This document shows, piece after piece, positions 1,369 through 25,610 of a DNA stretch of 64,000 nucleotides (positions are counted from its first letter, which is position 1; every line of letters begins with the position of its first letter). The notes beneath the pieces are model-generated. The model was not told where the DNA came from. It searched no databases and saw only the letters and a list, made by a program, of their open reading frames with translations. The position numbers and the translations under genes are program-made. The stretch comes from Pseudobdellovibrionaceae bacterium (lineage in GTDB: Bacteria > Bdellovibrionota > Bdellovibrionia > Bdellovibrionales > Bdellovibrionaceae): NCBI GenBank assembly GCA_030158485.1, contig JAOASS010000006.1, positions 1 through 64,000 of the forward strand, given 5' to 3'.

Positions 1369-2565
1369 ATGAAAACGAAACAGGTTCATCAAACCAATAC
1401 ATTAATACTTTCAAAAGTATTAAGCTTACTCACCTTCATTTTAGGCCTTTCTGTTTTAACGGCTTGCTCAGCAGTCAAATTTTCAACTAAGTCAAATTGT
1501 GGTAACGATACTAATTGTGTTAGCCAAGCTGGAAGCGATGTCTATGGAGAAGGTATAGAAACAATCACTGGTGGAAAAGTTGATATTTTATTTGTAAATG
1601 ATAACTCCGCTTCAATGTCTTACGAACAAACAAAATTATCAGAAAAATTTAATCAGTTTATATCTAAGCTTGACGGATCCTTTGTTGATTACCGTATAGC
1701 AGTTACTACAACAGATATTTCATCTGCTCAAAATGCTCCACGGACAATCAATCAGGGAGGAGCGCTACAAGATGGCAAATTAATTTCATTTTCAAACTCG
1801 CAAAAATATTTGACCCCATCGTCTGGAACGACGCAATATAAAGAGCAGCTGTTTAATTCTGTTATTAAGCGTCAAGAAACTATTTCCTGCGAACAATTCA
1901 TTAAAAATTGGGCGGGTAGTCGAGATACTTTAGCTTATTCTCAGTCCTACTACAATGCTTGTCCTTCAACTGATGAAAGAGGGATTTTTGCAGCAAATTT
2001 AGTAATTCAAAATAATTCCGACAACTTTATTCGCCAAGAAGCAGATTTAGCTGTGATTTTTCTTGCTGATGAAGACGAGAGAAGTCAGATGTATTGGCAT
2101 AATATTGCAGGTTTTGAATTAGCTGACTTTGATAAGGCATCAACTTTAGTAAATCAAATTAAATCAAAATATCCACAAAAAACACATGGTATCCATGCTT
2201 TTATCGTGAAAGATCAAAATTGTTTAAATATGCAGAATGCACAGACTAATGGTCTTGTGAGTGGAAGTTTTGGATGGGAATACTACAATGCGACAGTCGC
2301 AACTGGTGGAATTGCTGGAGATATTTGTTCCAACGATTACACTCAGCCGTTATTAAATATTTTTAGTAAAATTCAAGGAAATATTGTTGATAAAATTGCT
2401 TTGAAATGTTCTGAGCCTGAGTTGGAAACAGAATACATTACAATAACATCAAGTGATCCTTCTATAACTTCTTTTATTGTAGGTTCAGAAATAAGATTCA
2501 CTAAAAAACTACCTGTCGGATCAACTGTTAAGTATAAGTATCGGTGTGTTCAGAGCGCAAAATAA
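1369..2565 (+). CDS. Exported lipoprotein with a von Willebrand factor A-like domain
   Basis: I place the start at ATG 1369 rather than the longer frame opening at 1240, because AGAGGT lies just upstream and the protein then begins with a lipoprotein signal peptide ending in the lipobox LTAC|S. The mature part has a vWA-like opening (KVDILFVNDNSASMS) with a DNSAS metal-site motif of the MIDAS type, and a later LAVIFLADEDERS strand. Several Cys pairs suggest disulfides in the periplasm or at the surface. vWA folds usually mediate metal-dependent protein binding; the partner here is unknown. Confidence 0.7.
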   Translation: MKTKQVHQTNTLILSKVLSLLTFILGLSVLTACSAVKFSTKSNCGNDTNCVSQAGSDVYGEGIETITGGKVDILFVNDNSASMSYEQTKLSEKFNQFISKLDGSFVDYRIAVTTTDISSAQNAPRTINQGGALQDGKLISFSNSQKYLTPSSGTTQYKEQLFNSVIKRQETISCEQFIKNWAGSRDTLAYSQSYYNACPSTDERGIFAANLVIQNNSDNFIRQEADLAVIFLADEDERSQMYWHNIAGFELADFDKASTLVNQIKSKYPQKTHGIHAFIVKDQNCLNMQNAQTNGLVSGSFGWEYYNATVATGGIAGDICSNDYTQPLLNIFSKIQGNIVDKIALKCSEPELETEYITITSSDPSITSFIVGSEIRFTKKLPVGSTVKYKYRCVQSAK

Positions 2566-23671: not shown

Positions 23672-24328
23672 ATGAAAACAGATTCAAAAATTCAAAGTGA
23701 CGTTATGCAGGAGTTAAAATGGGATCCAAGTCTGACACATGAACATATTGGGGTATCAGTCCAAGATGGCATCGTGACACTTTCTGGAACAATTCCAAGC
23801 TATATAGAAAAATCAGCTGCAGAAAGAGCAGCTCAGCGGGTAGCAGGAGTTAAAGCTGTTGTTGAAAAAATTGAAGTTAAATTACCAGGCGTATACGTCC
23901 GAGATGACCAAGAAATAGCAAAAACAATTGTGAATCAATTTAAATGGAATGTGCAAGTTCCCGAAGAGCAGATCAAAGCCAGTGTTGAAAATGGATGGGT
24001 TGAACTGATGGGAGAAGTCGAGTGGGACTATCAAAGAACTGCAGCTGAAAGTTGCGCCCGAGGCCTTACAGGAGTTCAAGGTGTGATCAATAGTATTACA
24101 ATCAAATCAAAGAAAATACAGCCTGAAGTGGTAAAGCAAAAAATTGAAGAAGCTTTGAAAAGAGAAGCAGAGCGTGAAGCAAGACGTATTTCCGTTGAAG
24201 TTCGTGGAAGCAAAGTAATTCTTTCTGGGCAAGTTCATTCATTTACAGAAATGAATGATGCAAAATGGGCAGCCTGGAGTGCTCCTGGAGTGACAAGCAT
24301 TGAAAATAATCTTCACGTTAAAAACTAA
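23672..24328 (+). CDS. BON domain protein with three BON repeats
   Basis: 218 residues, three consecutive BON units of about 70 residues, each with the pattern of a V-x-[VL]-x-[DN]-G-x-[VI]-x-L-x-G strand: VSVQDGIVTLSGTIPS, ASVENGWVELMGEVEW and VEVRGSKVILSGQVHS. BON domains bind lipids or surfaces (OsmY-like), but no signal peptide is visible here, so it may be cytoplasmic. Driven by its own sigma-54 promoter. A large hairpin terminates the transcript downstream. Confidence 0.9.
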   Translation: MKTDSKIQSDVMQELKWDPSLTHEHIGVSVQDGIVTLSGTIPSYIEKSAAERAAQRVAGVKAVVEKIEVKLPGVYVRDDQEIAKTIVNQFKWNVQVPEEQIKASVENGWVELMGEVEWDYQRTAAESCARGLTGVQGVINSITIKSKKIQPEVVKQKIEEALKREAEREARRISVEVRGSKVILSGQVHSFTEMNDAKWAAWSAPGVTSIENNLHVKN

Positions 24329-24380: not shown

Positions 24381-24429
24381 AAAGGTCGAACTAAAATTAT
24401 TTTAAATTGATAATTTGAGTTCGACCTTT
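24381..24429. terminator. Hairpin after the BON gene, likely terminator
   Basis: AAAGGTCGAACT and its perfect complement AGTTCGACCTTT enclose a 25-base A/T-rich loop. It is 52 bases past the BON stop. There is no long T run on the plus strand, so termination efficiency is uncertain. Confidence 0.55.
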
Positions 24430-24583: not shown

Positions 24584-24599
24584 TGGCACAGAAACTGCT
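24584..24599 (+). promoter_or_regulatory. Near-consensus sigma-54 promoter with no protein gene downstream
   Basis: TGGCACAGAAACTGCT is the closest match in the window to the consensus TGGCAC-N5-TTGC; GG and GC are 10 bases apart. Transcription would begin near 24610, directly at the start of a long non-coding structured stretch. An enhancer match is poor (ATGAGGCTATTTTTTCCCA at 24496-24514, 11 of 19, about 70 bases upstream). Confidence 0.75.
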
Positions 24600-25313
24600 T
24601 AATTAATTTATATGTTCGACTGCAGCGATGCTAGTCAGAACTCAAGCGGGTGAAAGTCCCGCCAACAGAATCGTCCAGTTACTGTTGTAACCTGGATCAA
24701 TTGGAAGCTAAAAAATTCCAATAAGCTGATCGAAAAAAAATCTGGCATGTTCGTGTCAGAATTTTGGTAAGTCGGTAGGTTGTAGCGAAAGCGAACTTCA
24801 TAAGTTCATCAGTCCGTGAACGTTCGGAACGAACAACGGGAGATTGAAGAAGAGGCCGAGCTTCTGAACAAAAGCGAAGGCTAAAATCATTGGCGAAGAA
24901 CTGGATATTTGCAGCCAATGACTTTTCTAGGGACGGGAAGACAACATGTCGAGACTGAGTTGTGATGAAAGCACGGAACCATTTTTGAGTAGTTGATGTT
25001 TCTCCGAAGTCAACAAAAGTGGTTGGACAAGTTAATGATGCCGATTGGAAACGATTGGTAGTGTTAATAAAACCAGCTACCAAGCTTGGAAATGGGGCGG
25101 ATAAGATCGGAAAGCTTCGCAAGAAGTGAGGATCTTTGGAGTAGAGCTTCTTTGGGGTTAAACTTAGGGAAGTTTTAGTGGTGGTAGTTCGTAAGCATAT
25201 CGTTTTTTGAACTGCGAAGAATAAAGTCAACTTTGATTTATTTTGTGAATGCCGGGAGAATGGCTTAAACAAAATTGACACAAAGGAATGCTTTATTTGA
25301 AATGCCAGCTCTT

Positions 25314-25346
25314 GAGCTGTTCTGGGGAAATCCCAATGGGCAGTTC
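25314..25346 (+). ncRNA. Group II intron domain V-like hairpin
   Basis: A 33-base hairpin: a 9-pair lower stem starting GAGCTG and closing CAGTTC, a two-base 3'-side bulge (AT), a four-pair upper stem (TGGG/CCCA) and a GAAA-containing loop. The AGC at positions 2-4 faces GTT with a central G-U pair, as in the catalytic triad of domain V; canonical domain V is 34 bases with the same bulge side and loop. The following hairpin lacks an obvious bulged adenosine on its 3' strand, so a normal domain VI branch site is not seen. Confidence 0.5.
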
Positions 25347-25355
25347 TTCTTTCCA

Positions 25356-25417
25356 GTGGCGGAGCCGCTAGACGAGGTTTTAAAAAATTCCGTCTAGCGC
25401 GCCACCACTCTTTTTTT
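25356..25417 (+). terminator. Intrinsic terminator of the large RNA
   Basis: GTGGCG pairs with CGCCAC and, after a four-base 5'-side bulge (GAGC), CGCTAGACG pairs with CGTCTAGCG; the structure is followed by CACTC and seven T residues at 25411-25417. A 15-pair, G+C-rich hairpin plus T run is a strong intrinsic terminator. In an intron reading this would be the position of domain VI. Confidence 0.8.
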
Positions 25418-25421
25418 CAAA

Positions 25422-25610
25422 ATGCCTAAAGGAGAAGTTATACCAATTTCAGATTTATGTTCTAAAAGCATCGTAAGCGTTGAGCGTGGAGCCCCTTTGC
25501 AATATGCAGCACAGCTTATGAAAAAAAATATAAATCTTCTGAACAGAATCTGGTGTTTTAACTCAAAAATGAAAAGAAAGACCAGCTTAACAAAAGGATT
25601 AACAGAATGA
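25422..25610 (+). pseudogene. Truncated CBS-domain gene remnant
   Basis: A 62-residue frame whose first ~37 residues (VIPISDLCSKSIVSVERGAP, then LQYAAQLMKKNI) read as the start of a CBS domain, with AAAGGAGAAG nearby. After MKKNI the sequence becomes an unrelated basic tail and ends, so the second half of the first CBS repeat and all of the second are missing. It begins four bases after the large RNA's terminator and overlaps the 3' end of the opposing DUF4010 gene. Confidence 0.55.

Follow-up and report, generated by a model that had tools for sequence, protein, structure and literature searches.

What kind of product, if any, is encoded by some 800 nt of DNA that follow a sigma-54-type promoter site and carry no obvious protein gene? 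Such a stretch lies at positions 24584-25417 of the window, by which we mean the 64,000 nucleotides of contig JAOASS010000006.1 from a Pseudobdellovibrionaceae bacterium that were analyzed. An earlier note on this DNA had proposed a large structured RNA with a promoter and a terminator of its own. Its view that the stretch has no credible protein frame was borne out, as the longest stop-free sense frame within the RNA has 46 codons. On the opposite strand there is a frame of 194 aa (24697-25281, minus strand) that an automatic annotation pipeline might list as a hypothetical protein. A genuine protein gene on this strand has, in our estimate, a negligible probability: although long antisense frames are also found in two homologs (G137 and G016b), the frame in the window has no Pfam match, the longest stop-free antisense frames in many homologs span only 52-96 codons, and the compensatory changes described below track RNA pairing. 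This candidate was rejected on these grounds.

The RNA itself is strongly structured, in agreement with the stable hairpins that had been claimed for it. Folded as a single sequence, it has a minimum free energy of -267.5 kcal/mol, compared with -213.6 +/- 7.1 for shuffled sequences (z of -7.6). The Rfam scan of the window gave one match at the locus, to RF02003 (group II intron D1-D4-4) at positions 24644-24790, with a score of 58.4 bits against a gathering score of 49, and the same family was also matched at 15 places in homologous loci. The fold is thus not new and is of the ORF-less group II type, an identity that the earlier note had missed. Low-scoring Rfam matches to miRNA, snoRNA and tmRNA families, all far under their gathering scores, were dismissed as chance. 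The second relevant model, RF00029 (Intron_gpII, D5-D6), stayed below threshold in the window and in the whole genome, and this may explain why such RNAs get missed.

Comparison of homologs places the group II assignment on firmer ground. The consensus fold of a nine-homolog alignment comprises six consecutive domains in the canonical D1-D6 order. With this structure held fixed on the nine homologs, 95.6% of the cells of its 226 consensus pairs are paired. Both sides of the pair have changed in 116 cases. Shuffles give 47.3 +/- 4.9 such pairs, and a shift of the partner by one to three columns gives 26-32. Codon-like substitution between homologs had been named beforehand as a finding that would speak against an RNA; the homologs show compensatory base changes and share no conserved sense frame. 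All domains lie on the plus strand. Domain 1 (24626-24975) includes the RF02003 match and has covarying helices, as does domain 2 (24976-25098, alignment columns 374-505), and a covarying helix also defines domain 3 (25103-25136, columns 510-585). Domain 4 (25138-25312, columns 587-767) is short and contains no sense ORF. The catalytic hairpin of domain 5, GAGCTGTTCTGGGGAAATCCCAATGGGCAGTTC (25314-25346), was recognized by eye; it has the AGC triad and a 2-nt AU bulge, measures 33 nt and is nearly invariant, with 13 of 13 pairs formed in the nine homologs, 11 of them identical throughout and the remaining two changed on one side only.

Domain 6 (25354-25410) is a hairpin with a covarying outer helix, AGTGG/CCACT, and an unpaired branch-type A at position 25404. 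The pairing that leaves A25404 unpaired accounts for 82 of 88 cells in 11 sequences, compared with 69 of 88 for the rival pairing, and by this pattern D6 is predicted to be of the branch-point-A type. In one homolog (G016b) the branch-type A stands opposite a T. A form of D6 that lacks the branch A and has a 5' bulge (GTGGCG/CGCCAC, proposed by RNAalifold) was rejected because covariation across the 11 sequences favored the other pairing. Near the 5' end, the single-sequence fold suggests a hairpin GTTCGACT...AGTCAGAAC, which we consider less likely than the base stem of D1; judged by eye in the alignment, this hairpin is not kept in family f12 and the D1 stem is. Taken together, the locus encodes an ORF-less RNA of the group II intron type, with a six-domain fold in which the D5 core and the D6 branch A are under selection. 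Its structure and ancestry are those of group II, and by its fold it derives from a group II intron. The kept D5 triad and branch A would also fit an RNA that still splices.

The full-length homologs found belong to a single phylum but are not confined to one lineage within it. When 60 relatives were searched with BLAST, similar RNAs turned up in the window's family and in one other family of the order. A degenerate D5 pattern, scanned against 84,980 species genomes, hit seven stretches, all of them homologs, recorded mostly as Bdellovibrionota, Bdellovibrionales, Oligoflexia or Bdellovibrio MAGs and in one case as Proteobacteria only. Another of these stretches is recorded as Streptomyces griseus, a label that is probably wrong, since the stretch probably comes from G021, a genome assigned to the window's family. 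With a covariance model of the 3' part (D5-D6), 12 of the order's 141 genomes gave a match. Across the phylum, 25 genomes in 369 did so, three of these 25 being weak matches without full-length support. At least 21 genomes, spread over six families of a phylum that the record titles give as Bdellovibrionota, carry a full-length homolog; the homologs are always 725-838 nt long and always ORF-less. Distant copies were colinear in a profile search, with near full-length homology, and nhmmer reported full-length homology at 1e-25 or better for families f4, f12, f14 and, in part, f22. Weak model matches in G071, G052, G347 and G000:C23 were rejected as full RNAs, and the copy in G314 is partial, at a contig end. 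At the G052 locus (L070, about 1716-1760, minus strand), a D6-motif hairpin (GGAATCG ... GCGCGCCACC plus a T-run) follows an Hsp20-like gene, and the rest of the RNA is absent.

The distribution within the phylum is patchy. Neither of the two genomes that share the genus of the window's genome has the RNA, and it is also missing from almost all members of genus g6, which is well sampled. Five genomes (G016, G180, G181, G182 and G313) carry from two to several copies, which are mostly diverged within a genome (62-72% among the G180 copies). In G181, two contigs (L072 and L073) are broken off where the 3' ends of the RNA are identical; at least this part must therefore be present there in several almost identical copies. 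G016 (L022) has a tandem pair of RNAs; a separate -24/-12 element precedes each, and one RNA is located before an Hsp20 gene and the other before a CBS gene. No homologs were found on plasmids or phages, and the D5 pattern had no match in viral contigs.

Does the RNA begin at a promoter of its own, as had been proposed? The putative sigma-54-type -24/-12 element at 24584-24599 (plus strand), TGGCACAGAAACTGCT, has one mismatch to TGGCACNNNNNTTGCW. The window contains 34 sites with two or fewer mismatches to the sigma-54 consensus, where 29.7 are expected, and four of the 34 have one mismatch; taken alone, the match is not beyond chance. What makes the element significant is that 15 of 27 homologs keep it at one fixed spacing. 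The start is known for these 27 copies. In the 15 in question, the last base of TGGCAY-N7-GCW is 12-14 nt 5' of the first conserved base of the RNA; the 15 include 7 of 7 copies from the window's family and copies from four other families, that is, five families in total. In a sixteenth copy (G310) the element lies 34 nt before an assumed RNA start that is itself uncertain. The site thus has GG at -24, GC at -12, a fixed spacing and conservation, and faces an RNA of about 800 nt as described. Homolog comparison revealed no conservation between the promoter and the RNA, nor upstream of the promoter. The RpoN gene (PF04552) is present in 21 of 21 carriers tested, including the window's genome (G000), and genes for sigma-54 activators adjoin the RNA in G137 and G198.

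In the usual numbering of sigma-54 promoters, GC occupies positions -13/-12. Combined with the spacing of 12-14 nt, this means that transcription would begin 2-4 nt ahead of intron nucleotide 1. On this consensus numbering and the alignment, transcription is predicted to start at about 24610, with the 5' end of the RNA at 24610-24625 (plus strand). The conserved RNA extends from 24612 to 25410 and the transcript would run from about 24610 to 25417, or about 800 nt. Its conserved start at 24612 reads RTGTTCGAY, and across copies the 5' ends are RUGUU or GUGCU, which are near, but not identical to, the GUGYG of group II introns. Copies of family f12 lack the -24/-12 element. Upstream of the same RNA start they share a different conserved element, TTCANNTTG...GAGTA, whose distance from that start is fixed; two types of promoter thus seem to give the same RNA 5' end.

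The position of the promoter bears directly on whether this RNA is an ordinary ORF-less group II intron, spliced from a longer transcript, in which case the -24/-12 element would not mark where it begins, or splicing would manage with a very short 5' exon. Six ordered domains, an intact D5, a D6 with branch A and a GUGYG-like 5' end are what such an intron would have, and there is a precedent in C.te.I1, which self-splices in a genome without an intron-encoded protein (IEP) (PMC4424553). We nevertheless consider ordinary splicing unlikely. The promoter is fixed at 12-14 nt from nucleotide 1 in five families over unconserved upstream sequence, and its position allows at most 2-4 nt of 5' exon. 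In a test with 15 and 10 sequences and contiguous 5-6 mers, whose power is modest, the RNA showed no more pairing of the EBS/IBS type with the bases immediately before it than with shuffles. Moreover, no gene results when the flanks are joined, and several copies lie between convergent genes.

Alternatively, the fixed distance might reflect targeting and not promoter use, if a mobile intron, relying on an IEP provided in trans, homes to positions immediately behind -24/-12 sites. Apart from the distance itself, the patchy spread and the multiple copies in five genomes are in line with homing. We regard it as quite improbable, because no reverse transcriptase of any kind is found in seven near-complete carriers: RVT_1 (PF00078) is absent from the window's genome and from G137, G121, G171, G279, G281 and G287, all at least 95% complete and with full-length RNAs, while other carriers do encode reverse transcriptases. 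In addition, the 12 bases beside the insertion point vary freely among copies, without pairing to the RNA, the copies within one genome are mostly diverged, and in f12 a different element stands at the fixed distance. Neither a reverse transcriptase or maturase, in D4 or elsewhere in the window's genome, nor 5' and 3' exons with EBS/IBS pairing were found, and on these two counts the RNA is best not classed with the canonical or the mobile group II introns.

We next consider the 3' end and the genes around the RNA. The terminal hairpin of D6 (25355-25409) is followed by a C and by seven T (25411-25417, plus strand) that form a terminator-like tail; the earlier note had described this hairpin and tail correctly, with coordinates right within a few bases. 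A simple terminator scan of the window did not list this hairpin. The T-run after D6 is present in the window, G016a, G009, G121 and G313, and absent in G019, G042 and f14. Upstream of the promoter lies a gene for a BON-domain protein (23672-24328, plus strand, three stretches matching Pfam BON). A 20-bp inverted repeat behind it (24381-24429) is likely the terminator of the BON gene and separates the latter from the RNA. Other neighbors in the window are, after BON, host-attachment/baeRF, VIT1, DUF4010 and P-type ATPase genes. Downstream, at 25422-25610 (plus strand), we found the decayed remnant of a CBS-domain gene, covering its first 38 or so codons, with a Pfam CBS score of 17.7 bits against a cut-off of 24. 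L022 and L024 have an intact CBS gene in this position; in the window, homology is lost after about 38 codons.

In other carriers the RNA is frequently followed by stress-related genes on the same strand. Hsp20 genes are close to its 3' end in G021, G016 and G009, and CBS-domain genes follow it in G016, G015, G106 and G180 and, further off, in G181 and G198. Archease and then RtcB stand behind the RNA in G180 (tested with Pfam) and G181 (by sequence resemblance; L074). In G180 (L076, 2069-2506), the archease start codon is about 8 nt past D6; archease-RtcB is an RNA repair pair. FtsH and a CBS gene follow in G313 and a thiamine-binding-type protein in G279, and genes for universal stress protein, PPK2 and a beta-CASP RNase are found nearby in carriers. 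Sigma-54 stress control of the RNA, as read from the sequence, would be consistent with these neighbors.

This gene order raises the question of whether the RNA acts purely in cis, as the 5' UTR of sigma-54 stress transcripts with D6 as a conditional terminator or processing site. In 12 listed copies (G021, G016a, G016b, G009, G015, G106, G180a, G180b, G181c, G279, G281 and G121), a same-strand gene starts at most about 60 nt from D6, leaving little room for another promoter, so that the RNA is probably a leader there. The claim of a unit with its own promoter and terminator therefore stands for the promoter and the terminator-like hairpin, and its independence probably does not hold in these relatives. 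A leader role throughout is nonetheless rather unlikely, given that no close same-strand gene follows the RNA in G019, G042, G171, G310 and G182a, and that in the window the downstream gene has decayed and the RNA is intact, which suggests that here it is probably a stand-alone RNA. With downstream genes that differ and about five copies that have no same-strand gene, a single shared target is not apparent.

Our preferred reading, which we hold to be reasonably probable, is that of a domesticated, exonless group II RNA that serves as a sigma-54-switched leader or as a stand-alone RNA. A start at a sigma-54 promoter and the stress-gene setting suggest the conversion of a selfish intron into an RNA under stress control; from these sequence comparisons we infer promoter function, loss of splicing and a regulatory role. 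RNA polymerase with sigma-54 would very probably start at the -24/-12 element, 2-4 nt before intron nucleotide 1, and a start there would imply a linear, exonless RNA and not one excised from a host message. The promoter may be turned on under stress by an enhancer-binding protein. The RNA would then fold, and D6 would end the transcript in copies with a T-run or a convergent neighbor, yielding a stand-alone RNA; elsewhere, transcription would pass D6 into the Hsp20, CBS, FtsH or archease-RtcB genes and the RNA would be a structured leader. More tentatively, a single domestication in the ancestor of the phylum may have given an exonless, IEP-free stress ribozyme under sigma-54 whose retained active site acts on RNA in trans or at its own 3' boundary, a possibility to which we assign less than even chances. 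If true, an IEP-free and 5'-exon-free family widely kept under its own promoter would be an example of a bacterial group II ribozyme that has become a cellular RNA gene, much as group II-like reverse transcriptases have been domesticated. Intron RNAs have been proposed as the source of the spliceosome machinery, and this family would offer a test case of how such RNAs become host machinery.

Bacterial group II introns have been described as retroelements whose rare ORF-less forms nearly always need a related IEP (PMC4424553). A survey of 14,506 bacterial genomes reported 888 IEP-less introns (PMC8919778); it relied on RF00029, the model that does not see the RNA in the window's genome. With mobile, IEP-encoding group II introns the present RNA has in common the D1-D6 order, the D5 triad and bulge and the D6 branch A, and it differs from them in having no reverse transcriptase or maturase in D4 or in the window's genome and in not reaching the RF00029 threshold. 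C.te.I1 of Clostridium tetani (PMC4424553) is likewise a six-domain ribozyme with no IEP in it or in its genome. However, it splices between exons and is a single case, whereas the present RNA has no apparent 5' exon, begins at its own promoter and spans six families of one phylum. Among group II ribozymes that act as noncoding RNAs, the circularly permuted group II RNAs (PMC8637638) come nearest to the present one; they are also large bacterial noncoding RNAs of group II origin and not ordinary introns. Those RNAs have a rearranged order, with D5-D6 before D1, and make RNA circles; here D1 is first and D5-D6 are last. In the open-access literature that we searched on group II introns together with Bdellovibrio, sigma-54 or regulatory derivatives, we found no account of the present RNA.

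Sigma-54 stress control is also known for the rtcBA RNA-repair operon with its regulator RtcR (PMC7790460, PMC9879122). The RNA of family f12 lies directly before archease-RtcB, yet its copies have no -24/-12 element, unlike sigma-54 rtcBA. The f12 element TTCANNTTG...GAGTA, present in G180, G181, G182 and G198, had zero control matches in four genomes and has a few further sites elsewhere in the genomes, which points to a possible regulon of another sigma factor.
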